A stretch of DNA of 64,000 bases from Desulfosporosinus sp. FKB (GTDB taxonomy: Bacteria; Bacillota; Desulfitobacteriia; Desulfitobacteriales; Desulfitobacteriaceae). Positions 1 to 12,508 of this stretch are shown here, in pieces. The stretch is taken from contig NZ_NADJ01000040.1 of assembly GCF_002196705.1 (NCBI RefSeq), positions 310,001-374,000 of the forward strand, given 5' to 3'. Below the pieces are notes generated by a model. That model saw only the letters and a program-made list of their open reading frames with translations, ran no database searches and was not told the origin of the DNA. Both the position numbers and the translations under genes were made by a program. Every line of letters starts with the position of its first letter. The first letter of the stretch is position 1.

Positions 1-321
1 CATTTTTTCTGCAAGCTTAATATACCCTTCATGAGTCACTATGTTCATCATAGCATGGAAATATTTATCGGACTGTTCTTTGACAGCCTCTATTAGTTCA
101 GGATGACTGTACCCTATATTCAGTACACCTACTCCTCCAACCCAATCGAGAAAAATATTACCGTCCACATCTTCCAGCATTGCACCTTCCCCTCTGCTGA
201 TTACGCAGGGATAAATACAGTTTATGGCGCTTGGAACAGCCTCTCCTCTCCTTTCTATTATTGCTTTGGCTTTCGGGCCCGGCAAAGGTGTATTTATTTT
301 TGGCAAAGCATCTCTAAGCAT
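1..321 (-). CDS. Class III aminotransferase, GABA aminotransferase-like (3' end outside window)
   Basis: The minus strand reads 107 codons from ATG at 321 to the window edge without a stop, preceded by an AAGGAGA ribosome binding site. The N-terminus contains the pattern seen in PLP-dependent class III aminotransferases: a proline-rich start (LPGPKAKAIIERR), then DVDGNIFLDWVGGVGVLNIG and HPELIEAVKEQ. This most resembles 4-aminobutyrate aminotransferases, which convert GABA and 2-oxoglutarate to succinate semialdehyde and glutamate. The catalytic lysine would lie beyond the window, so substrate is inferred from the neighbouring putrescine genes. It lies downstream of the alcohol dehydrogenase gene on the same strand, probably in the same operon. 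Confidence 0.8.
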   Translation of the reverse strand, partial: MLRDALPKINTPLPGPKAKAIIERRGEAVPSAINCIYPCVISRGEGAMLEDVDGNIFLDWVGGVGVLNIGYSHPELIEAVKEQSDKYFHAMMNIVTHEGYIKLAEKM

Positions 322-436
322 AATAAATTATCTCCTTAAACTATAAATATTTTTTACGACTCCCATACCGTTTTACAGCACCACTGAGGTAAGGAAAATT
401 AATATTCCTGGTAGAAAAACCTACGTTGTATACTTT

Positions 437-1570
437 TTATAAGGCTTTCCGGTAAATCTTTTTAATTTCTTCCAAACTAAATACAACCGGGTGATTGGCG
501 ATACCTGCTGCAGAAACTTTCAGGCAATTTTCCGCCATCCAATCCACATCTTCCAGAGTAACTCCTTGCTCGCCCAGGGTCGTTGCTAAATCAATTTTAG
601 TAAGTAATTCTCTAATTTTCGGTACACAGTCATTTTCATCCTTGCCACCTAAAAGTTTAGAAATAACAGCAAATTTCTCAGGTGCACCACTGATTGATTC
701 TTCAAAAATTACCGGGGCAAGGGCTGCCAGCCCCCTGCCATGAACAATATTTTTCAAACCGCTTGCAGGATGTTCCATTCCATGCGGTGCTGTAACACCG
801 GCTGTATTAATAACCATTCCGCCAAGTGTACTGGCGAAACACAGCTGCTCCCAGCTGGCAAGATCTGACGGATCATTATATACCTTGCAAAGGCCATAGG
901 CACTTAGGCGGATGCCTTCCAAAGCCTGCATTCTGGTCAGCGGTTGCGCTAGAGAGGACAAATACCCCTCCATACAGTGACAAAGGGCATCAAAACCAAC
1001 GCCAGCCAGCGTGGATTTTGGCAGGGTAGTCATAAGCAGCGGATCTATTATGGAACAGGCAGGCACAATGGCCTTACAGCGCAAAGATTTTTTATCCATA
1101 GTTTCCGGATTGGTCATTACGGCAAAACCGTTTCCTTCACTTCCCGTACCGCAAGTGGTCGGTATGGCAATCACAGGCAGGGCTTGATCACTGAGTTTGC
1201 GGCCAAAAACATAGTCATTGATATCACCGCTGTTAACTATTTGAAAGGCAATACCCTTCGCAGCGTCAATACTGCTGCCTCCACCTACGCCGATTACAAC
1301 GTCGCAGCCCTCCGCAGCTGCCAGTGCTGCCCCTTCGTAGATTGTGGTAGTCAAAGGATTCGGGGTGACCTTGTCAAATAAACAAAAGGAAACCTTGTTC
1401 TCTTGCAAAAGTGTTTCAATCTTATGCAAAAGGCCGGAGCGTTTGGTGCTGCTGCCGCCAGTGACGAGCAGAGCGCGCTTGCCCAGTGCCGCCGCTTTTT
1501 CACCAATGGTATCTGATTTTCCGCAACCGAACACGAGATTAACAGGTAAATGGTAATCAAATTCCAACAT
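437..1570 (-). CDS. Iron-containing alcohol dehydrogenase, possible 4-hydroxybutyrate dehydrogenase
   Basis: About 377 residues, the usual length of type III (iron-dependent) alcohol dehydrogenases. The NAD-binding GVGGGSSIDAAK motif is near residue 95. Metal-ligand regions are recognisable as GVGFDALCHCMEGY and APHGMEHPASG followed by VHGRG. ATG at 1570 is chosen because GGAGG lies 7 bases upstream; an in-frame ATG at 1609 lacks this. Family members reduce aldehydes or oxidise alcohols with NAD(P)H. Lying between a GABA-type and a putrescine-type aminotransferase, it could reduce succinate semialdehyde to 4-hydroxybutyrate, as the iron enzyme of Clostridium kluyveri does. The substrate is inference; the family is clear. 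Confidence 0.85.
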   Translation of the reverse strand: MLEFDYHLPVNLVFGCGKSDTIGEKAAALGKRALLVTGGSSTKRSGLLHKIETLLQENKVSFCLFDKVTPNPLTTTIYEGAALAAAEGCDVVIGVGGGSSIDAAKGIAFQIVNSGDINDYVFGRKLSDQALPVIAIPTTCGTGSEGNGFAVMTNPETMDKKSLRCKAIVPACSIIDPLLMTTLPKSTLAGVGFDALCHCMEGYLSSLAQPLTRMQALEGIRLSAYGLCKVYNDPSDLASWEQLCFASTLGGMVINTAGVTAPHGMEHPASGLKNIVHGRGLAALAPVIFEESISGAPEKFAVISKLLGGKDENDCVPKIRELLTKIDLATTLGEQGVTLEDVDWMAENCLKVSAAGIANHPVVFSLEEIKKIYRKAL

Positions 1571-1721
1571 AAGTAATCCTCCAAAGGTGCGGGGAGAGAA
1601 GCTCAGCATCCCTCCCCATGATATTTCTGGTTTTGGTGCAAATCTGCTAAGATGTTCTCTTTCTCACATCGACCAAACCTTCCTTAAGATGATCGCACTT
1701 GCCTTAGGGGAGCGTTGATTA

Positions 1722-3077
1722 TTAGAGCGCATCAATCTGCTTATCCGCTTCAGCAACTGCCTGCTCAAAGCGTTCGACAACGATGTCAAAATCCTCGTAA
1801 GAAGTGGTCGCCGCAGGCTCAAAGCGGATTACCTTAGAATTGTTGAGGGTGCCGGCTGTCATGACACGTCGTGCAAACATGCCTTTGGCCACAATATAGC
1901 CGATCTCCGATTTGGGGAACTCAACCCCAATCATCAAGCCAATGCCGCGGATTTCACTTAGAACGCGCGGATACTTGGCCTGGACCCCCTTAAGCTTGCT
2001 CATCAGATATTGACCTTTTTCTTTTGCCTGCAGCGGAATGTCATATTTGAGCATGAAGTTTATCGTTGCAATCGCCGCTGCGCAGGCCAGGGGATTGCCG
2101 CCGAAGGTTGGGGAGCCAAGTATCCAAGGATTATCCTGGAGCTCCTGAGTCCACAGATGAGGGCGGGCTATAATACCAGTGATGGGCATGATACCTCCGC
2201 CGAAGGCCTTGCCGTAGGTCATGATGTCAGGGGTTACTCCTTCTGCCTCGCAGCGAAACATAGAACCCGTCCGACCCATGCCGGTCTGGATTTCATCAAA
2301 GATTAAACAGACCCCATATTCGTCACAGATCTTACGAACCTCCTGGAGATAGCCTTCAGGTGGGAGGATAACACCGGCTTCGCCCTGGATCGGTTCGAGG
2401 ATAACAGCCGCTACTCCCTCTCCCACAGCTGTGAGGTTTTTGATTGCTTTACGGATATCCGCTGCCACTCCATATTCCACGTGCTGCACCTGCTGCACTA
2501 TAGGCAGATAGGGAATGCGGTAAGTACCTTTCCCTCCCATCGATAGTGCACCCATTGATTTGCCATGGAAACCTCCAATGGTGGAGATATACCAGCGGCC
2601 GCCCGTGGCAATACGAGCGAGTTTAAGCGCCATCTCAACAGCTTCAGCACCACCATTGGTGAAAAAGCAGTATTGCAAGTCACCGGGGGTAATTTCAGCC
2701 ATCGCTTTGGCCAGATAACCGCGCAGCGGATCAAGCAGTTCTTGGCTGTGCAGTGCCTGCCGGTGAAGCTGTGCCTCGACCGCCTCTAAGATTTCCGGAT
2801 TTCGATGACCGCACATATAGATGCCAAACCCACCTAAGCAATCAATGAATTCTTCACCATAAACATCGTAAAAATAAGAATCGTGATCCATCCACTCAAC
2901 AAAGGCGGCATTTGTAGAAACGGATTTGCGGTATTTAAGCCAGCCGGGATTGACATAGTTGTTATAATTTTCTATCGCATCTTCGACGATTCTTCCCTTG
3001 TCTTCTATACTGAGCTCATGGCCAGTAATATAACCGAGTGCCCTGTCAAGTTCTTTTAGTGCCTGCTCTTTACTCAT
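1722..3077 (-). CDS. patA: Putrescine aminotransferase-type class III aminotransferase
   Basis: 451 residues, matching YgjG/PatA-type putrescine aminotransferases (about 450-460). The sequence has the PLP enzyme hallmarks: FTNGGAEAVEMALKLAR (phosphate binding), GFHGKSMGALSMGGK, the Asp of FDEIQTGMGRTG that contacts the pyridine nitrogen, and TYGKAFGGGIMPITG holding the Schiff-base lysine. The likely reaction is putrescine plus 2-oxoglutarate to 4-aminobutanal plus glutamate. AGAGGGG precedes the ATG at 3077. The next gene downstream in transcription order is the alcohol dehydrogenase and the upstream one is the aldehyde dehydrogenase that would take the aminoaldehyde product. Other diamines (cadaverine) or ornithine-like substrates cannot be excluded. 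Confidence 0.82.
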   Translation of the reverse strand: MSKEQALKELDRALGYITGHELSIEDKGRIVEDAIENYNNYVNPGWLKYRKSVSTNAAFVEWMDHDSYFYDVYGEEFIDCLGGFGIYMCGHRNPEILEAVEAQLHRQALHSQELLDPLRGYLAKAMAEITPGDLQYCFFTNGGAEAVEMALKLARIATGGRWYISTIGGFHGKSMGALSMGGKGTYRIPYLPIVQQVQHVEYGVAADIRKAIKNLTAVGEGVAAVILEPIQGEAGVILPPEGYLQEVRKICDEYGVCLIFDEIQTGMGRTGSMFRCEAEGVTPDIMTYGKAFGGGIMPITGIIARPHLWTQELQDNPWILGSPTFGGNPLACAAAIATINFMLKYDIPLQAKEKGQYLMSKLKGVQAKYPRVLSEIRGIGLMIGVEFPKSEIGYIVAKGMFARRVMTAGTLNNSKVIRFEPAATTSYEDFDIVVERFEQAVAEADKQIDAL

Positions 3078-3164
3078 TCTAAGCCCCTCTTTCCCTTACC
3101 TAATAAATTCCTGCCTAATTGAATATAAGTTTCAAAGTATGCCAGACTAGCCAAGAAAAAAAAC

Positions 3165-4643
3165 TTACCGCTCTTTAAACCAACCGAGGGGCAACGGTTC
3201 GAGATTGATGTTGATCTGTTTCACCTCGGTATATTCCTCAAAACCAAAGGTACCGAGTTCGCGACCCAAACCGCTCTGTTTGTAGCCTCCCCACGGAGCT
3301 TCGTTATACGTTGGATTGTAAGCGTTGATCCAGGTAATACCTGCCCGCAGCTTCTTAATGACTCGGAGTCCTTTAGCACCATCTTGGGTAAAGACTCCGC
3401 CTGCCAGTCCATAAATTGTGTTGTTAGCCAACGAGATGGCTTCTTGTTCATCTTTGAATTTCTGGACGACCAACACCGGTCCGAAAATTTCCTCTTGAAC
3501 AATGCGCATTTCCGGTGAGGTGTCAGTAAAAATCGTAGGTTCTACGAAGTATCCCTTTTCAAAACTGCCCTCCAGAATTCGGTTTCCACCGCACACCAGG
3601 CTGGCACCCTCTTTTTTTCCCAGTTCTATGTAATCAAGTACCCGCTTCAGGTGCGTTTCACTGATCAGGGGGCCCATTTCGACGTCCTCCTCCATCCCCG
3701 GTCCGACCTTGATCTGCTTAGTCCGTTCAACAAGCCTCTTCAGGAATTGGTCATGGATGCTCTCTTCAATCAGGAGCCTGGAGCCTGCGCTGCAGACCTC
3801 ACCTTGGTTTACAAAGATGGCAAAAAGAGTCCAATCCACAGCTGCCTCAAGATCCGCATCGGCAAAAATGATATTCGGTGATTTACCGCCCAGTTCAAGG
3901 GAGATATTCTTAATGTTGCCTGTTGCTGCCATCATAATCGAACGCCCTGTCTTAGTACCACCTGTAAACGCGACCTTATCAATATCGAAATTGGCAGCCA
4001 TCTCGTGTCCCACTGTATCGCCGGCACCCAGCACAAGGTTTGCGACCCCCTTGGGATAACCCACTAGGTCAATAAGTTCAAAAAGCCTGATAACTGTCAA
4101 TGGGGTTAGCTCTGAGGGCTTAAAGACAACTGTGTTGCCTGCCGCGAGGGCCGGTGCTAATTTCCAGGCAGCCATCAGCAGCGGATAATTCCAGGGAACG
4201 ATCTGACCGCAGACACCGATGGGCTCGCGCACAACCAGAGTCTGCATAGGATCAGCTACATCGTAAGTCTGACCATGGGGCTTGGTGGCAAGACCGGCGT
4301 AATACCTAAAACAAGCGACGGCATCACTGACATCGCACTGGGCCTCGCGCAGGGCTTTGCCGTTGTTCTGAGTTTCCAGCTTGGCAAATTCCTCCGTCCG
4401 CTTTTCCAGGGCGTCAGCAAGTGCAAACATAAGCCTGGCGCGTTCAATTGGAGGCGTCGCCATCCAGCCGTCTTCATAAAAAGCCCTCTTGGCTGCTGCA
4501 ACGGCAAGCCTCACATCTTCCGCAGCGCCTTCGGCTACGGTTGCCAGAACACTGGCGTCGGCTGGATTGATAACGTCTCGGGTCTTACCGGCAAGCGCCG
4601 GCACCCATTGACCGTCAATATACATTCTTTCGATACTTTCCAT
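3165..4643 (-). CDS. Aldehyde dehydrogenase, gamma-aminobutyraldehyde dehydrogenase-like
   Basis: About 492 residues of NAD(P)-dependent aldehyde dehydrogenase fold. Visible motifs are VPWNYPLLMAAWKLAPALA, VAFTGGTKTGR, the catalytic Glu in ISLELGGKSPNIIFAD and the catalytic Cys in NQGEVCSAGSRL. The C-terminus GGYKQSGLGRELG is typical of betaine- or aminoaldehyde dehydrogenases. ATG at 4643 is chosen for the GAGAGGAG box seven bases upstream; the frame runs open further to 4694. In context it would oxidise 4-aminobutanal from the PatA reaction to GABA. It follows potC directly (62 bases), consistent with one transport-catabolism operon. Confidence 0.85.
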   Translation of the reverse strand: MESIERMYIDGQWVPALAGKTRDVINPADASVLATVAEGAAEDVRLAVAAAKRAFYEDGWMATPPIERARLMFALADALEKRTEEFAKLETQNNGKALREAQCDVSDAVACFRYYAGLATKPHGQTYDVADPMQTLVVREPIGVCGQIVPWNYPLLMAAWKLAPALAAGNTVVFKPSELTPLTVIRLFELIDLVGYPKGVANLVLGAGDTVGHEMAANFDIDKVAFTGGTKTGRSIMMAATGNIKNISLELGGKSPNIIFADADLEAAVDWTLFAIFVNQGEVCSAGSRLLIEESIHDQFLKRLVERTKQIKVGPGMEEDVEMGPLISETHLKRVLDYIELGKKEGASLVCGGNRILEGSFEKGYFVEPTIFTDTSPEMRIVQEEIFGPVLVVQKFKDEQEAISLANNTIYGLAGGVFTQDGAKGLRVIKKLRAGITWINAYNPTYNEAPWGGYKQSGLGRELGTFGFEEYTEVKQININLEPLPLGWFKER

Positions 4644-4705
4644 GCATAAGCTCCTCTCTAAATTTATTAATTTGGGAGTCCTTGACTCAGGCAAGTTTAT
4701 AGGTA

Positions 4706-5509
4706 TTAAACCAGACCTTTTTTAGAGGTTTTAGCCTCAAAAGTTCGCATAACCACGAGAATTAAGAGCGTGATAAGGATAATCACAGTGATTAAGGCAT
4801 TGATATCCGGCGAGACTCCTGTTTTGACCTTATTGAAGATATAAATAGGCAGCGTCACGCTGTCCACACCGGTGGTAAAAAAGCTGACGATCACATCATC
4901 GAGGGACAGGGTGAGGGCCAGCATAGCGCCGGCGAGAATCCCAGGGGCGATGATCGGCAGCGTGATGCGCAAAAGAGTGTGCAGGCGGGTAGCACCCAGG
5001 TCCATCGCTGCTTCTTCCACCGACATGTCAAAGCCGGAGATGCGTGAACGCACCGTGACAACAACATAGGGCATCGAAAAGGTGACATGGGCAATAATCA
5101 GCGTCGTAATGCCTAAACTAATATTTAGGATGTGGTAAAAGGCGAGCAAGGAGATGCCCATGACGATCTCGGGGATAACAATGGGGATATAGAGGAAGGA
5201 GTCAACAATACTTTTACCCCTAAATTCATAACGAAACATTCCTATAGCGGCAAGGGTGCCAATGAAAACCGAGATGACGACGGTGGAAACGGCAACGATC
5301 GCTGTGTTTTCTAAGGCCGACATAAGATCCGTGTTCTGCAGCATGATGCCGTACCATTGGAGGGTAAATCCCTGAAAAACAATATTAAGCTTAGACGAGT
5401 TAAACGAGAAAAAAACAATAATCGCGATAGGCAGGTAGAGAAAGATATAAATCAGGGTCACAAAGACCGCCGACAGGAGCTTGGTTAACTGTTTGTTGCT
5501 TGAATTCAT
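4706..5509 (-). CDS. potC: Spermidine/putrescine ABC transporter permease PotC
   Basis: 267 residues with about six hydrophobic membrane segments. The EAA loop that docks the ATPase is clear: VEEAAMDLGATRLHTLLRIT followed by LPIIAPGILAG. The opening segment (LIYIFLYLPIAIIVFFSFNSS) and overall length match PotC. It is a membrane half of a type I ABC importer, paired with PotB upstream (13-base gap). AAGGGGGG lies before the ATG. Substrate is inferred as putrescine/spermidine because the operon also encodes putrescine-degrading enzymes. Confidence 0.9.
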   Translation of the reverse strand: MNSSNKQLTKLLSAVFVTLIYIFLYLPIAIIVFFSFNSSKLNIVFQGFTLQWYGIMLQNTDLMSALENTAIVAVSTVVISVFIGTLAAIGMFRYEFRGKSIVDSFLYIPIVIPEIVMGISLLAFYHILNISLGITTLIIAHVTFSMPYVVVTVRSRISGFDMSVEEAAMDLGATRLHTLLRITLPIIAPGILAGAMLALTLSLDDVIVSFFTTGVDSVTLPIYIFNKVKTGVSPDINALITVIILITLLILVVMRTFEAKTSKKGLV

Positions 5510-5522
5510 AACCTTACCCCCC

Positions 5523-6437
5523 TTAAGTAATATTTTCGAGACTACCGCCGAAGTGCTTGTAGACCCTCATCAAGACGATGGTGAAGACAATCAGGAGAAT
5601 CGACAGGGCTGCACCGAAGGGCCAATCTCTTGCCGCAAGAAATTGGTTTCTGATAAGATTGCCAACGAGGACGGAATTTCCGCCGCCTAATAGGTCACTG
5701 ATGAAGAAGTAGCCAAGCGTCGGGATAAAGACTTGGATGCAGCCGGCAAAGACACCCGGAACAGTGAGCGGGAGCGTCACCCGCCAAAAAGCTCGCCGCG
5801 GCTTGGCACCGAGATCGTTGGCGGCTTCCAGCAAAGAACGATCAAGTTTCTCGATTGAGCTGTAAAGCGGCAGCACCATAAATGGAAACAGGGTATAGAC
5901 CATTCCGACCATCACTGCTCCGTTTGTATAAAGCATCTGGAGTGGCCGAAAAACCAAGTGCGTCGACTGCAGCAGGGTATTAAAGGTACCATTCGTCCGC
6001 AACAGAATTATCCAGCCATAGGTACGAATGAGTGAGTTAGTCCAAAATGGCAGCATGATCAGGGAAAGCAGAATACTTTTGTTGCGGTCTCTGGCCCTGG
6101 CAATGATATAGGCGAAGGGATAGCCTAGTACCAGGCAGAGTACAGTGGTTGCCAGAGCAATGACAATGGAAACAAAAAAGATTTTCAGGTAAAGGGGATC
6201 ATAGATCCGCAGGTAGTTTTGAAAATTTAAGCTGGCAACTACCCCCCCATAAGTACCTTTTTTCATAAAACTGATGACAAGGATATACACCAGAGGAGCG
6301 GCGACAAAAATTAAAAGCCATAGGATGACCGGACCAACCATCAGGAAAAGCGGAATGCTTCGGGAAAGGGCCATTCGCTTCTCTGATGCGGTTGCCTCTG
6401 CTCTGAACGAAACTAGTGGTGGAGTCACGGTATTCAT
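5523..6437 (-). CDS. potB: Spermidine/putrescine ABC transporter permease PotB
   Basis: 304 residues, six predicted membrane helices after a polar N-terminus of about 30 residues. The EAA loop reads LLEAANDLGAKPRRAFWRVT then LPLTVPGVFAG, as in PotB-family permeases. The ATG overlaps the end of potA by four bases (ATGA), indicating translational coupling, and GAGGTGA precedes it. It pairs with PotC to form the membrane channel for polyamine uptake. Confidence 0.9.
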   Translation of the reverse strand: MNTVTPPLVSFRAEATASEKRMALSRSIPLFLMVGPVILWLLIFVAAPLVYILVISFMKKGTYGGVVASLNFQNYLRIYDPLYLKIFFVSIVIALATTVLCLVLGYPFAYIIARARDRNKSILLSLIMLPFWTNSLIRTYGWIILLRTNGTFNTLLQSTHLVFRPLQMLYTNGAVMVGMVYTLFPFMVLPLYSSIEKLDRSLLEAANDLGAKPRRAFWRVTLPLTVPGVFAGCIQVFIPTLGYFFISDLLGGGNSVLVGNLIRNQFLAARDWPFGAALSILLIVFTIVLMRVYKHFGGSLENIT

Positions 6438-7567
6438 ACACTCACCTCGATTTTCGGGACCTGCTCTATGAGATTATAAAGAGTTTCCTCATGGGTATGG
6501 AGAACAACGGTACCGTCCTTTTCCCAATAGACCCAAACGACCTCGCCTGGAGCAATCAGCGGCGTGCCTGCCAGCAAACTCATTTTAAGGTCCTGTCCAT
6601 TAGGCAGCTCAATGATTGTCTTGATAATCGAGCCCACATAGATATGTTCTTTGACAGTGCCCCTGAGGTTGAAACCGGGCACAGCGGCAGCAGAGCATTT
6701 GAGCTTTTCAGGGCGCACTGAGATATACACCATCTCGTCCTGACTGAACCCGGCGGCGCTGACCTCGGCGCTGCCAGTTTCAAAGATAACGTTAAGGCTG
6801 TCGCCGTCGACACTTCCAACCGAAGCCTCAAGAATATTCGATTCACCAATAAAATCCGCGACAAATTTCGTTGCCGGTTGATTATAGATCTTATCAGGCG
6901 GACCGATCTGCTCCAGGATACCGTTGTTCATGACTGCGATGCGATCGCTCATGGTTAAGGACTCTTCCTGATCGTGCGTTACATAGACAAAGGTAATGCC
7001 CAGTTGGCGTTGGAGGTGCTTGAGCTCGACTTGCATCTGCTTGCGCAGTTTGAGATCCAAGGCGCCAAGCGGCTCATCAAGCAACAAAACCTTAGGTCGA
7101 TTGACAAGTGCTCGGGCAATAGCCACACGCTGTTTCTGTCCGCCTGACAACTGGGAAGGCATCCGCTTCTCATAGCCATCCATCTGCACTAAGGAAAGCA
7201 TCTCACCTACCCGCTGACGAATTTCCTCTTTCTTGACTTTTTTTTCAGTTAGCCCAAAAGCAATATTGTCATAGACGTTCATATGAGGGAACAAGGCATA
7301 ATTCTGAAACACAGTGTTGACATTGCGCTGGTAGGGTGCCTTGTTCCCAACATTTTCACCCTCGATTATCACTGCGCCTGAGGTCACGGCTTCAAATCCG
7401 GCAATCATCCGCAAGGTTGTCGTCTTGCCGCAGCCGGAAGGCCCGAGCATTGTTAAAAACTCACCCTCCCGTATCTGAAGGTTTAGGTTTTTGACGACCT
7501 TGTTAGCACCATAAAATTTATCCACATTGCGTAGTTCAACCATGACCTTATCAGATACTTGTGCCAT
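6434..7567 (-). CDS. potA: Spermidine/putrescine ABC transporter ATP-binding protein PotA
   Basis: 377 residues. Walker A GPSGCGKTT is near residues 42-50, the Q-loop at VFQNYALFPHMNVYDN, the signature at QLSGGQKQRVAIARAL and Walker B at LLLDEPLGALD followed by THDQEE. The C-terminal 130 residues form the TOBE/OB regulatory domain typical of PotA and other CUT1-like ATPases. AGGAGG stands 7 bases before ATG. It powers import through PotB/PotC. Thirty bases upstream is the PII-like gene, an unusual position for such a regulator. Confidence 0.92.
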   Translation of the reverse strand: MAQVSDKVMVELRNVDKFYGANKVVKNLNLQIREGEFLTMLGPSGCGKTTTLRMIAGFEAVTSGAVIIEGENVGNKAPYQRNVNTVFQNYALFPHMNVYDNIAFGLTEKKVKKEEIRQRVGEMLSLVQMDGYEKRMPSQLSGGQKQRVAIARALVNRPKVLLLDEPLGALDLKLRKQMQVELKHLQRQLGITFVYVTHDQEESLTMSDRIAVMNNGILEQIGPPDKIYNQPATKFVADFIGESNILEASVGSVDGDSLNVIFETGSAEVSAAGFSQDEMVYISVRPEKLKCSAAAVPGFNLRGTVKEHIYVGSIIKTIIELPNGQDLKMSLLAGTPLIAPGEVVWVYWEKDGTVVLHTHEETLYNLIEQVPKIEVSV

Positions 7568-7596
7568 GCGGGCACCTCCTTATTGCTTGTGTCGGT

Positions 7597-7935
7597 TTAT
7601 AGAGTTTTCTCCCCTCTCTCTCCGGTTCGTATGCGCATGACATCGCGGACATCCGAAATGAACACTTTTCCGTCTCCCACTTTACCCGTCGAGATTGTTT
7701 CGTGGAGCTCAGTGAGAATCTCCTCGACATCCTCATCCAAAACCACCGTCATCACCTGAACTTTAGGCAGTAAGTTTATCTCGAGGTTAAGTCCTTCAAA
7801 CTCCTTGATTCTGCCCTTTTGGTGACCACAGCCCATAACGGCTGTGACTGTAAGGCCGATATAGTCATGCTTAGCTAGGATTTTCTTTACGTCGACGAGT
7901 TTCTCTGAACGAGTGATTATTTCAAGTTTCACCAT
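7597..7935 (-). CDS. PII family nitrogen regulatory protein
   Basis: 112 residues, the standard PII length. The ferredoxin-like core is recognisable from KLEIITRSEKLVDVKKIL, and the C-terminal signature reads ISTGKVGDGKVFISDVRDV (ATP-binding region). The T-loop follows CGHQKGRIKEFEGLNLE and lacks the Tyr at the position uridylylated in enterobacterial GlnB, as in many Gram-positive PII proteins. PII proteins sense ATP/ADP and 2-oxoglutarate and bind transporters or enzymes. Most sit beside amtB or glnA; here the gene lies between potD and potA, suggesting it gates polyamine import or catabolism by nitrogen status. That role is inference. Confidence 0.88.
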   Translation of the reverse strand: MVKLEIITRSEKLVDVKKILAKHDYIGLTVTAVMGCGHQKGRIKEFEGLNLEINLLPKVQVMTVVLDEDVEEILTELHETISTGKVGDGKVFISDVRDVMRIRTGERGEKTL

Positions 7936-7981
7936 TTTGTTCGCACTCCCTTTTTTGCGTTAGCTATGCCTGGAAGATTAA

Positions 7982-9049
7982 TTAGCCCTTAAATTCTGTC
8001 CAGATCCTATCAAATTGGCTCAAAGAGGCCCCCACATCGTTAAGAAGTTCGCTGCTTTTGATCTTGTCGAAGGGGATATTGCTGGCTGAGTTGTCAAGAT
8101 AACTTTTCCCTAACAATGAATGGGCGGCTTTGTTGGGATTGGTATAGGGGTACTCGTCGGAAATTAATTTACTAACTGTCGGATCAAGGATGTAGTTGAT
8201 GAACATCTCTGCTTCCTTTTCATGCTTGGTACCTTTAACGACACAGAGATTGTCAATAGTAAGTCCGGAAATGCCTTCTTTAGGCCAAATAACTTTGATA
8301 TCCGGGTTCGATTTAATGGCCAGGGCAGCTTCGCCGTTGTAAATAAGGCCAATGGAGCACTCTCCGGAAATTAAGGCGGTTTTAGGACTGTCACTGTCGA
8401 ACACCTTAATATTCGGTCTGAGTTTCTTCAACCAACTTTCCGCATCTTTAAGATCATTTTCATTGGTGTCATTTAGCGAGTGACCTGTCGCGAGCAAGGC
8501 AGCTCCGATGATGGGCCGCTCATCGTCAACAACGACTATCTGATTTTTGAATGAAGGATCAAGCAAATCGTTATAGCTGGTAATGGTCTTAGTCACCTTT
8601 TTGGTGTTGACCGCCAGAACAACCGGACTGGAAAGGTATGGAACAGTGTATTTGTTTCCCGGATCGTAATCACGGTTTAGAAAACTGTCATCTATGTTTT
8701 GGAAATTAGGGATATTATCCTTGTTAATCGGCTGAATAAGATTTTGGGCTATCATACCTTTAACAGCGTAATTGCTGGGTACGACGACATCATACTGTGA
8801 GAGCCCGCCCGCTTGTAGCTTAGCTATCATTTCCTCGTTAGAAGAGAAGTTACTCATCTTGACTGTGATGCCATACTTCTGTTTGAAAGAATCGAGCACT
8901 GACTGCGGGGTATACTCAGTCCATTGGAAAAAGTTAATTTCTTTAGTATTGCTCCCGTCACTCGTAGTTTTACTGGAACCGCAGCCGCCGAGAGATACCA
9001 CTCCAAACGACAAGAGCACCACCATAACCAGGGATAAGATACGTTTCAT
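7982..9049 (-). CDS. potD: Spermidine/putrescine-binding lipoprotein PotD
   Basis: 355 residues. A lipoprotein signal (charged start, hydrophobic stretch, lipobox SLGGC near residue 27) anchors it outside the membrane. The mature part begins with INFFQWTEYTPQSVLDSFKQ, the typical PotD/PotF opening, and contains DVVVPSNYAVKGMIAQNLIQ. It would capture polyamine for PotABC. AAGGAGG precedes the ATG. It appears to be the first gene of the polyamine operon, because a terminator and non-coding sequence lie upstream. Confidence 0.9.
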   Translation of the reverse strand: MKRILSLVMVVLLSFGVVSLGGCGSSKTTSDGSNTKEINFFQWTEYTPQSVLDSFKQKYGITVKMSNFSSNEEMIAKLQAGGLSQYDVVVPSNYAVKGMIAQNLIQPINKDNIPNFQNIDDSFLNRDYDPGNKYTVPYLSSPVVLAVNTKKVTKTITSYNDLLDPSFKNQIVVVDDERPIIGAALLATGHSLNDTNENDLKDAESWLKKLRPNIKVFDSDSPKTALISGECSIGLIYNGEAALAIKSNPDIKVIWPKEGISGLTIDNLCVVKGTKHEKEAEMFINYILDPTVSKLISDEYPYTNPNKAAHSLLGKSYLDNSASNIPFDKIKSSELLNDVGASLSQFDRIWTEFKG

Positions 9050-9109
9050 AAAAGTTCCTCCTTACTTTGATTTAGAATAATATTCGTGTGGGTTATCTCT
9101 ATATAAAAA

Positions 9110-9134
9110 CTTAACAATAAATACAGTTGTTAAG
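9110..9134. promoter_or_regulatory. Inverted repeat upstream of potD, candidate operator
   Basis: A perfect 8-base inverted repeat, CTTAACAA / TTGTTAAG, separated by 9 bases, lies about 60-85 bases upstream of the potD start. Just downstream in the direction of transcription is an AT-rich TATATA block that could be a -10 region. The symmetry suits a dimeric regulator; the PucR-type protein encoded at 10097-11218 is the obvious candidate. No direct evidence links them. Confidence 0.4.
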
Positions 9135-9158
9135 CCAACACCTACGTCAGAGCAAGAA

Positions 9159-9195
9159 AAGGGGGTTGTCTCGCCTGTAGCGAAACAACCCCCTT
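9159..9195 (-). terminator. Rho-independent terminator of the cytidylate-kinase-like gene
   Basis: GGGGGTTGT and ACAACCCCC (extended by AA/TT) form a GC-rich stem around a short loop. On the minus strand the stem is followed by CTTTTCTTGC. It lies about 110 bases after the stop at 9306 and separates that gene from potD. Confidence 0.7.
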
Positions 9196-9305
9196 GTTGT
9201 TATGAGATAAAAAAATCTAGCTCTAACAATTTGTTGCATCATTTTTGATATTTAACCAGAAATGCCCCATTGCATATTTTTTTGAGATTCTATCTTGAGA
9301 TCCTG

Positions 9306-9896
9306 TTATTGCAAATTGAATCTCTTCCTTATAATTTCTACGAGCACATCACAGGTTCCCTCAACTCCCAGCAGACTGGAATCCAGCATTACATGCTTGA
9401 AGTCTTTATCTGACATGGAGTAGCCACAGTAGTGTTTGTGATATGCGTCCCTGGCTTTGTCTACAGCAGCAATCATCTTCTTTGCCTCGGCGGGTTGCAT
9501 ATCGAGTATCTCCACACAATTACAAAGTCTTGCGCTATAAGGTGCATAGATAAAGACATTAATAATATCCGTACAATCTTTGAGAATATAATCTGAGCAC
9601 CGACCGACGATAATACACGGTCCTTTTTCCGCGAAATCTGTGATAATTTTTCGCTGAACAGCAAATATTTGATCCTGAATTTCGTTAGTCCCCATACCCA
9701 ACGGGAAACTCATGTTGAAAAATGCAGATGATTTTGCGCTTTCCTCTTCATCACTGATGGTTGAAACCGGAAGATTCAGCTTCTTTGAGGTAAATTCCAC
9801 GATCTCTCTGTCGTAATATTCAATGCCCAACGTTTCACTGACTTTTCGAGCAATTGGCCGGCCTAGACTGCCAAACTGCCGTGCTATTGTAACCAC
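9306..9896 (-). CDS. Cytidylate kinase-like family protein
   Basis: 196 residues read from GTG at 9896. The N-terminal TIARQFGSLGRPIARKVSE has the form of the cytidylate kinase-like family ([IV]TI[SA]RQ.GS.G..IA), followed by GIEYYDREIV, and IIVGRCSDYIL stands where family members have an 'ivGR.a..iL' motif. These proteins share the P-loop kinase fold with Cmk but are often regulatory or of unknown substrate; a housekeeping cmk is normally elsewhere. It is divergent from the pucR-type gene and ends in its own terminator. No strong ribosome binding site is visible before the GTG. Confidence 0.72.
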   Translation of the reverse strand: MVTIARQFGSLGRPIARKVSETLGIEYYDREIVEFTSKKLNLPVSTISDEEESAKSSAFFNMSFPLGMGTNEIQDQIFAVQRKIITDFAEKGPCIIVGRCSDYILKDCTDIINVFIYAPYSARLCNCVEILDMQPAEAKKMIAAVDKARDAYHKHYCGYSMSDKDFKHVMLDSSLLGVEGTCDVLVEIIRKRFNLQ

Positions 9897-10096
9897 AAAT
9901 TTTTGTCCCGTAGTTAATCATCCCTTTGGAGAAATCTTGTTTTGTTTATGTTAGTATTTTAGCACACACAAACTAAAATCCAATGGCCCCACGCTACAAA
10001 CATTTCGCAGCTTTTTGTATTACCGGTACAATTAATTCTTTAATTAGTAATATTAGTATGATATACTCTAAAAAATCTACCAAGGAGGAAAGCCCT

Positions 10097-11218
10097 ATGC
10101 GGACACAAGTAAAAACTTTATATGAGTCTGCAAAAACAAAATACATGCTGACCATCCTTGGTGGGCAAAGCGGATTGAACAATGCTGCTTCCTGGGTATA
10201 TGTTACTGAAGATATTCAAACCGTTTCATTTTTAAAGGGTGGAGAGCTGGTTATTACCACGGGGCTTTTTACTCAAAATAACATTAATCTGTATAATTTC
10301 ATCCGAACGATCGCTTTACACAATTGCAGCGGCATCGTGATTAATGTAGGTAAGTATATTATTAAGGAAGATATTACTCCAGAAATTATCGAATTTTGCA
10401 ATATCAACGGATTCCCGCTCTTCACTATGCCTTGGGAGATCCATTTAGTGGACATTTTACAGGATTTCTGCAAACTCCTTCTATATGACAACAATTGGGA
10501 AAATCAACTCAGTTCAACATTTCAGAACGCCATTAATCAGACGCCGGTACAAGACAATACTCTCCGCACTCTAAATCAGTTTGGGTTCGAAACTATAGGG
10601 GATTACAGAGTTTTCGTAATCCGCAATTTAATGGAGACAACGATCATTACTTCTCCACTGAACAGCTACAGTCTGAAATATCACCTGTTCCAATATGACA
10701 ATATGCACATTCTTGTCTATAATACGGCGCAGAAGCAGCTTTCCTTGGACAGGGTAATTACACTGATTTGTTATTGTGACAGTATTATCCTGGGTATCAG
10801 TGATACTGCACATTCTCTTGCCCAAATTAGTCTAAACTATAAACGCGCTCGCTTTTCTCTGGCTGCTGCAGAATTCTACCAACGGCAGTGTGTGCGTTTT
10901 GATGAGCTTGGATTGTTTCAGATATTTTTCAGTTTATCTGATCCAAGTTTGCTGGAAACACTTTTTCTGCAGCATCTGGGTAAATTGGAAAAATACGATC
11001 GCGATCACGATTCAGATTACATGAACACACTTCATATTTACCTCTTATCAGATTGCAGCCTGCTCGATACGGCCTCCCGGCTGCATACACATCGAAATAC
11101 GATCGTCTACCGCATCCGGAAAATTAAAGAAATCCTTAATATTGAGCTGGACAATTCTTCGATTAAATTCAATCTTATGATGTCATTTTGTATTAAAGAA
11201 TATCTTTCTATGTTGTAA
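10097..11218 (+). CDS. PucR family transcriptional regulator
   Basis: About 373 residues from the ATG at 10097, preceded by AAGGAGG; the frame is open upstream to 9983 but without a better start. The N-terminal half has the PucR-type pattern (VYVTEDIQTVSFLKGGELVI, TTGLF, FPLFTMPWEIHLVDI). The C-terminal end carries the family helix-turn-helix: LHIYLLSDCSLLDTASRLHT then HRNTIVYRIRKIKEIL. Members activate catabolic genes for purines, polyamines or amino acids. As the only plus-strand gene beside the polyamine cluster, it is the likely local regulator, which is inference. Confidence 0.85.
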   Translation: MRTQVKTLYESAKTKYMLTILGGQSGLNNAASWVYVTEDIQTVSFLKGGELVITTGLFTQNNINLYNFIRTIALHNCSGIVINVGKYIIKEDITPEIIEFCNINGFPLFTMPWEIHLVDILQDFCKLLLYDNNWENQLSSTFQNAINQTPVQDNTLRTLNQFGFETIGDYRVFVIRNLMETTIITSPLNSYSLKYHLFQYDNMHILVYNTAQKQLSLDRVITLICYCDSIILGISDTAHSLAQISLNYKRARFSLAAAEFYQRQCVRFDELGLFQIFFSLSDPSLLETLFLQHLGKLEKYDRDHDSDYMNTLHIYLLSDCSLLDTASRLHTHRNTIVYRIRKIKEILNIELDNSSIKFNLMMSFCIKEYLSML

Positions 11219-11240
11219 CTTATTGTTGATTGAACACAAA

Positions 11241-11281
11241 TAGGGTACTATCCCTTAAAATTATTAGTGACTGTACCCCTA
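11241..11281. repeat. REP-like imperfect palindrome, copy 1
   Basis: TAGGGTACTATCCC and GTGACTGTACCCCTA frame an AT-rich centre. A closely similar sequence is at 26813-26851 (TAGGGCACTGTCCCC ... GGTGACAGTACCC). The form is like REP sequences mobilised by REP-associated tyrosine transposases, but no such gene is in the window. Confidence 0.5.
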
Positions 11282-11285
11282 CTCA

Positions 11286-11348
11286 ATTGTATAAATAATG
11301 CCCACAAGCCCTTGGTATATAAGGCCTTGCGGGCATTATTTATACAAT
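11286..11348. terminator. Long perfect inverted repeat, bidirectional terminator candidate
   Basis: ATTGTATAAATAATGCCC is repeated in inverted form 27 bases later (18 perfect pairs), with a secondary CAAG/CTTG pairing in the centre. It sits between the pucR-type gene (plus) and the toxin gene (minus), which converge here. Confidence 0.55.
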
Positions 11349-11531
11349 CTTTAGACTTGAGTTAATACGAATATTAATCACCCTAAACAATATATCAGCA
11401 TATAAGTTTGTTTATGAACAATATTACTATAACCCGATTAATTTCTAACTACACATTTTCCTACACATGCGTCATAACGTATTTTCAATATTTTACCGCT
11501 CTTCGGCTCAAATTACCCGCATCTGAAGCCT

Positions 11532-11849
11532 TCATGAATCACGTAAACGCTTGGCTATATCGCTGGCACTGTACAAAACGTTTGTAATGATTACCCGCTC
11601 TTCTCTGATATGAAAGAATACAGAAAAGTTATCAACAGGCATTTGCCTGAGTCCCAGCGCACATTCTTCTTCTGTCTCCATTAACTTCACACGTTCTGGG
11701 AACGTATCAAGAGTTTCGATTGTGTCAGCTATTCTGTTATACTGTCCCATGGCCGCTTCCGGTGCCTGTAGCTTCTCCGCGATATAATTATAAATCTCCT
11801 CCATATCGGAAAGTGCCATGTCAGTTATCTGAATCTTATACTGCTTCAT
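11532..11849 (-). CDS. RelE/ParE family toxin
   Basis: 105 residues. The opening YKIQITDMALSDMEEIYNYI is typical of the RelE/ParE fold, as are FPERVKLM, LGLRQMPVDNFSVFFHI and the closing VIITNVLYSASDIAKRL. RelE members cleave mRNA on the ribosome and ParE members poison gyrase; the sequence alone does not settle which. Its start overlaps the antitoxin stop by four bases (ATGA), the usual order for relBE pairs. Confidence 0.85.
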   Translation of the reverse strand: MKQYKIQITDMALSDMEEIYNYIAEKLQAPEAAMGQYNRIADTIETLDTFPERVKLMETEEECALGLRQMPVDNFSVFFHIREERVIITNVLYSASDIAKRLRDS

Positions 11850-12151
11850 GCGTGTGTCTTCCGAAATCTCTGAAAGGCAGCAGATGCATCCTGCACATTA
11901 CCTTTTTCGATATCGTTGTATCCTTCCTTTAACTTCGCATGAATTTCGTCCGTTGTCATCAAATCGGCATTTACGGAAACCGGTACTCTCGGCAGCGTTA
12001 CAGCAAAAGGTATTCCGCCGGTCATTGAAATCTGCTTTAGATAAATATCTATCGCTGTGGACATAGGTATGCCGAGTTGTGAAAGGACTTCCTCGGCCCT
12101 TCTTTTTACGTCAGGATTAACTCTTAAATTTAAAGTCGTAGTTTTTTCCAT
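11846..12151 (-). CDS. RelB/DinJ family antitoxin
   Basis: About 101 residues. The N-terminal TTTLNLRVNPDVKRRAEEVL then LGIPMSTAIDIYLKQI is the ribbon-helix-helix DNA-binding domain of RelB/DinJ, followed by GIPFAVTLP. The C-terminal part would neutralise the toxin encoded immediately downstream. ATG at 12151 fits AGGAG nine bases upstream better than the ATG-like start at 12160. The pair probably represses its own promoter. Confidence 0.87.
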   Translation of the reverse strand: MEKTTTLNLRVNPDVKRRAEEVLSQLGIPMSTAIDIYLKQISMTGGIPFAVTLPRVPVSVNADLMTTDEIHAKLKEGYNDIEKGNVQDASAAFQRFRKTHA

Positions 12152-12508
12152 GATAATCATCTCCTTTTAATATCATTGTAACGCTTTTGTCGTTACCTTT
12201 CAACAATATGCAGCTGTAGCTAGCAAAATAGACCAGTTGCAGTTTTTACCATTATAAACATCATTTTATAGAAGGTTTGTTCTTTAAGGGCAATAGCACC
12301 AGCATTCTTATTGGCGCAGTTGCAGCCCCAAAAAATGTTTTCCAAGATTATAAATTGACTAATCTTGCGTTTCATTATACCAAGGAGGGAATACAAATGT
12401 TCCATTTCCTAAACTAGCAAAAAGTCGACTTAACTTATGTTTTTGTCACATCACGACAAATATATACTGTGACGGAAAAAATACCCAAAATGATGAACAA
12501 ATGAAAAT

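Follow-up and report, generated by a model that had tools for sequence, protein, structure and literature searches.

A PotN-type PII gene within the polyamine operon of Desulfosporosinus sp. FKB

Desulfosporosinus sp. FKB carries a gene for a PII signaling protein inside a polyamine (pot) operon, directly between potD, which encodes a polyamine-binding lipoprotein, and potA, which encodes the ATPase subunit. The gene lies in a stretch of 64,000 nucleotides (contig NZ_NADJ01000040.1, positions 310,001 to 374,000 of the forward strand), the whole of which we refer to as the window. Comparisons of aligned sequences place its product with PotN of Lentilactobacillus hilgardii and not with GlnK, a placement that is weaker when the columns of the T-loop are removed. 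We consider it probable that this PotN-type PII protein serves its own operon by tuning the importer, via PotA, to the energy and carbon/nitrogen state of the cell.

The PII gene is an ATG-started open reading frame on the minus strand, and its 112-amino-acid product matches the Pfam P-II model with 87.8 bits (cut-off, 25) over model positions 1 to 102 of 102. Gaps of 46 bases (7936-7981) and 29 bases (7568-7596) separate it from potD and potA, respectively, in near agreement with the preliminary description, which had put the gene between these two with gaps of 46 and 30 bases. Shine-Dalgarno-like motifs precede both the PII gene (aagggag) and potA (aaggaggt), and a consensus scan of the two gaps found no terminator-like site on the minus strand. 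In the following, L numbers denote loci and G numbers denote genomes. The dN/dS of the window PII gene is 0.07 against L010 and 0.067 against L092, with pairwise values of 0.015 to 0.073 among the four Desulfosporosinus copies; because the ratio is about 0.07, we conclude that the gene is under purifying selection. The PII protein of L009, a Desulfosporosinus acididurans record, is 99% identical to that of the window.

Table 1. Features of the polyamine operon in the window
Feature	Position	Strand	Basis
Terminator-like hairpin upstream of potD	9159..9195	-	17-pair stem, then T-rich tail
potD, polyamine-binding lipoprotein	7982..9049	-	best NCBIfam match PRK09501 (PotD), 237.4 bits, below curated cut-off of 582
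PotN-type PII gene, 112 aa	7597..7935	-	Pfam P-II, tree, residues and identity to PotN
potA, ATPase subunit	6434..7567	-	TIGR01187, 377.9 bits, above cut-off of 355.6; TOBE_2 domain
potB permease	5523..6437	-	best NCBIfam match PRK09497, 309.2 bits, below cut-off of 348
potC permease	4706..5509	-	best NCBIfam match PRK09500, 275.1 bits, below cut-off of 326
Aldehyde dehydrogenase	3165..4694	-	Pfam Aldedh, 604.4 bits
Putrescine aminotransferase (pat)	1722..3077	-	NF008570, 676.1 bits, above cut-off of 612
Iron-containing alcohol dehydrogenase	437..1609	-	Pfam Fe-ADH, 170.8 bits

The whole run of genes, from potD (9049) to the iron-containing alcohol dehydrogenase gene (437), lies on the minus strand (Table 1). 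The pat product exceeds the curated cut-off of one of two NCBIfam models, its score with TIGR03372 (494.9 bits) being below the cut-off of 658.65. The aldehyde dehydrogenase, which attains no NCBIfam equivalog cut-off among the matches listed (25 families), perhaps acts on 4-aminobutyraldehyde. Upstream of potD, the hairpin probably ends the gene that precedes the pot operon and reads as a plain terminator; a known RNA element at this site was rejected, as no Rfam match reached the gathering threshold in positions 1 to 12000. Also upstream are a cytidylate-kinase-like gene (9306-9896, minus strand) and a gene for a PucR-type regulator (9983-11218, plus strand; PucR, 90.4 bits; HTH_30, 62.2 bits), which may control the pot operon; open reading frames resembling both are likewise found upstream in L009. 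Two slightly overlapping minus-strand open reading frames, RelE/ParE-like (11532-11849) and RelB/DinJ-like (11846-12160) as judged by eye, form a possible toxin-antitoxin pair.

The best match of the window PII protein in the PDB is 7o4x (E value, 5.5e-28). PMC9692440, a dye paper of 2022 that made use of PotN, identifies this entry in its reference list as PotN of L. hilgardii; the same list gives the title of Iskhakova et al. (FEBS J 2022), in which PotN figures as a PII subfamily of Firmicutes that senses the energy state. In a passage of PMC9692440, a C-terminal PotA domain from L. hilgardii, carrying a His tag, is also used; it was "obtained as described earlier", with two references given, one of them the PotN paper. 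Such use fits an interest in PotA as a partner, and the passage reports no binding. PotN and the window PII protein share 57 of 113 positions (50% identity). They differ in that the window T-loop is two residues shorter, the host is a Desulfosporosinus and the operon includes pat, aldehyde dehydrogenase and iron-containing alcohol dehydrogenase genes. We built a tree of 69 PII proteins, comprising 13 pot-linked sequences, PotN included, and 56 GlnK-type sequences chosen by hand from about 200 loci. A branch (99/73; 99% of 200 bootstrap trees) separates all 13 pot-linked proteins from the rest, and the 12 that remain when L165 is left out form a starred branch (98/93). After removal of the T-loop columns, the 13 stay together in 70% of bootstrap trees, and the free tree needs two changes. 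Location in a pot operon, which we took as a defining trait of the subfamily from the name PotN, was found for the window gene and its relatives. PII proteins nearer to PotN (57 to 61% identity to it) occur in a Lactobacillales family, in the order potD-PII-potA-potB. Plasmid-borne close relatives of PotN were rejected: 97 records match, the best place in each being below 60% identity. An order-wide scan with PotN (395 genomes) gave a highest identity of 52%, and 0 of the 30 loci retrieved had a match to a window pot protein within 1.5 kb; by eye, eight of nine of these loci (L119-L125, L128 and L130) had an ammonium-transporter-like neighbor, the stretch covered at L128 being too short to tell.

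The positions that we take to be nucleotide-binding sites, namely, G87, K90, R101 and R103, are all present in the window PII protein and occupied in 13, 12, 13 and 13 of the 13 pot-linked rows, respectively. Gln39 and Lys58, presumably ligands of 2-oxoglutarate, are kept in 13/13 and 12/13 rows. By contrast, Arg47 of the T-loop, which we assume to be the residue that plugs AmtB, is found in 1 of the 13 pot-linked rows versus 55 of the 56 comparison rows, with the T-loop alignment gapped in some pot-linked rows; the window protein has Glu at this position. It was described earlier as lacking the tyrosine of uridylylation, and position 51 is indeed Leu. As an argument, this observation is weak: Tyr51 is missing not only from all 13 pot-linked rows but also from 35 of the 56 GlnK-type rows, and we rejected a distinct meaning for its loss. 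Since Gln39 and Lys58 are kept, 2-oxoglutarate is possibly an input of the pot-linked proteins, yet the published subfamily is, by its title, "energy-state sensing".

The position of the gene recurs in relatives near and distant. Among 45 genomes of the bacterial family of the window, pot-linked PII genes were found in four, each in the order potD-PII-potA-potB (neighbors checked at 30 loci of matches). Two Oscillospiraceae and one Lachnospiraceae (L011 to L013) also have them, with potD inverted in L012, as do G781 and G532 from a sample of 391 Clostridia genomes, where potD lies behind potC instead (neighbors checked at 30 loci). In the Lactobacillales family (335 genomes, assigned to this order through an Enterococcus record), three genomes have a pot-linked PII gene; here neighbors were checked at L185-L189 of the new loci L185-L210 and at L123, L130, L131 and L133. 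With genomes met twice (G008 = L009 and G032 = L010) counted once, the PII gene immediately precedes potA, in the same orientation, in 12 of 12 distinct contexts, which were chosen for nearby pot genes, so that the fixed site beside potA is informative and the linkage is not. Synteny of PII with the pot genes, which the preliminary description had singled out for comparison with other genomes, is thus conserved in some family relatives and recurs in Oscillospiraceae, Lachnospiraceae and the Lactobacillales family. The Clostridia scan also returned many P-II matches within open frames of about 560 to 695 amino acids, which, judged by length alone, are possibly ammonium transporter-PII fusions.

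Related pot operons also occur without the PII gene. At an E value of ≤1e-110, relatives of PotA were found in at least 6 of the 45 family genomes, four of them PII bearing; because each search with PotA considered a limited number of candidates in a genome (at most 43 in the family search and 5 and 6 in the others), such counts are lower bounds. The other two belong to other genera. In G041, potD (82%) lies directly before potA (84%) with no PII gene between them, and the operon looks intact, which implies that such an importer can exist without PII. In G001, potD (77%) is likewise directly before potA (84% over the first 238 residues) with PII absent between them, and a transposase-like open reading frame splits potA (L184/L230). 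In a PotA tree with 9 of 16 inner branches open and a very long outgroup, G041 and G001 fall inside a group of 10 rows of which the other 8 are PII bearing (fork, 83/90), a placement that would suit loss of the PII gene. In the Lactobacillales family, a search of 328 genomes with PotA of L185 as the query (1e-120) found at least two genomes with close relatives, both PII bearing, and no PII-less close relative, these counts also being lower bounds. Residues of PotA that might sign dependence on PII were rejected; two positions (358 and 367) change without PII and give no interface signature. One genome, G781, has both a PII-bearing (L220) and a PII-less (L229) pot operon.

PII-bearing and PII-less operons may also differ in the genes around them. 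With the window pat as the query, a pat gene was found near 7 of 11 PII-bearing pot operons versus 1 of 6 PII-less ones, in a small and non-independent sample in which relatives are counted repeatedly (three Desulfosporosinus; L222 and L223; G041 and G001). The seven pat-bearing contexts (the window, L009, L010, L011, L222, L223 and L224) each include a relative of pat at 68% or above; pat was not found near PII in L012 (1.6 kb of upstream flank), L013, L220 and L221, and L092/G012 was excluded because its contig is 6.2 kb. Among the PII-less loci the one positive is G001, where a pat gene (46%) and a gene for aldehyde dehydrogenase (63%) both lie on the other strand. Extended to other catabolic genes, the count is 9 of 11 PII-bearing versus 1 of 6 PII-less contexts, biased in that the agmatine and tyramine-oxidase-like queries were drawn from PII-bearing loci; the count made with the window pat alone does not carry this bias. 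In L222 (11694-16702), pat and the genes for agmatine deiminase and N-carbamoylputrescine amidase come after the PotN-bearing pot operon, the deiminase and amidase scoring over their cut-offs, and L223 has close relatives of these two by similarity. A protein of the tyramine-oxidase-subunit-B family, over its cut-off, is encoded in L220, with relatives in L221. Neither pat, agmatine nor tyramine-oxidase-like genes were found near L012 and L013.

The pot-linked gene is one of nine P-II matches in the genome and the only copy in a polyamine operon. Three others (L001, L002 and L003) lie beside genes for ammonium-transporter-like proteins, the transporter of L001 being on the other strand, and L005 has no such neighbor within about 1.5 kb; two pairs (L006/L007, and L008 with an adjoining match) lie beside nifH-like genes, all as judged by eye. 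NifI1 and NifI2 are nitrogenase-linked PII proteins that are encoded with the system they serve. The NifI-like pairs of this genome belong to the same PII family as the pot-linked protein but score 67.7 to 80.1 bits with the P-II model, versus 87.1 bits for the latter in the genome-wide search. Classical PII proteins act on many targets, and the eight further matches in the genome would allow for mixed trimers or for targets in common. We considered whether the protein is a general nitrogen regulator in trans, acting on glutamine synthetase, a transcription factor or AmtB, and merely cotranscribed with the pot genes. This seems unlikely to us, as the pot-linked proteins form a group of their own with pot linkage across orders, the window T-loop is without Arg47, and the genome already has three PII genes beside ammonium-transporter-like genes. 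GlnK, the PII protein linked to AmtB, shares family and nucleotide-site residues with the window protein, but the window gene is adjoined by potD and potA instead of an ammonium transporter gene, and Arg47 is missing from 12 of the 13 pot-linked proteins.

That the gene is a passenger of little function is very improbable: two sister genera are without PII between potD and potA and few family genomes have it, but the low dN/dS, intact sites and the same position in distant lineages speak against it. A target among the catabolic enzymes, above all putrescine aminotransferase, with amino-group transfer matched to the supply of 2-oxoglutarate, would agree with the frequency of pat near PII in contexts with longer flanks and with the retention of the presumed 2-oxoglutarate ligands. 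We regard this as quite improbable, since 4 of 11 contexts with PII showed no pat nearby, whereas potA adjoins in all 12, which favors PotA as the partner. The earlier proposal, that a dedicated PII protein could inhibit PotA or the aminotransferase, is thus supported in part: the PII is encoded in the operon and its synteny is conserved, but the aminotransferase fits less well as its target.

If the PII protein acts on PotA, it would do so as a trimer, with adenine nucleotides and perhaps 2-oxoglutarate bound where its subunits meet. The T-loop, presumably no longer adapted to the ammonium channel, would dock on the PotA ATPase, and docking may in this way tune polyamine uptake to energy and carbon/nitrogen state, most likely read as ATP/ADP and possibly 2-oxoglutarate. 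Imported putrescine would then be transaminated through the downstream genes.

Going by the title in the reference list of PMC9692440, the PotN kind was already described in 2022, a point absent from the preliminary description, and the window gene adds a member to it. The 2022 paper may already cover part of the present findings; the PII-less sister operons and the link to catabolic amine import are possible additions. Our results are a modest extension of the described subfamily that places a PotN-type PII in Desulfosporosinus, within an operon that also encodes the enzymes with which putrescine breakdown begins; natural pot operons with and without PII offer a way to test what it does in polyamine uptake. 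We tentatively suggest, while holding it doubtful, that PotN-type PII proteins mark pot importers that feed catabolism (of putrescine, agmatine and perhaps aromatic amines), gating uptake by energy or carbon state, and that biosynthetic or housekeeping importers go without PII. If so, gain or loss of PII would accompany the shift of an operon from collecting polyamines for growth to consuming them as a source of nitrogen or energy, or the reverse.
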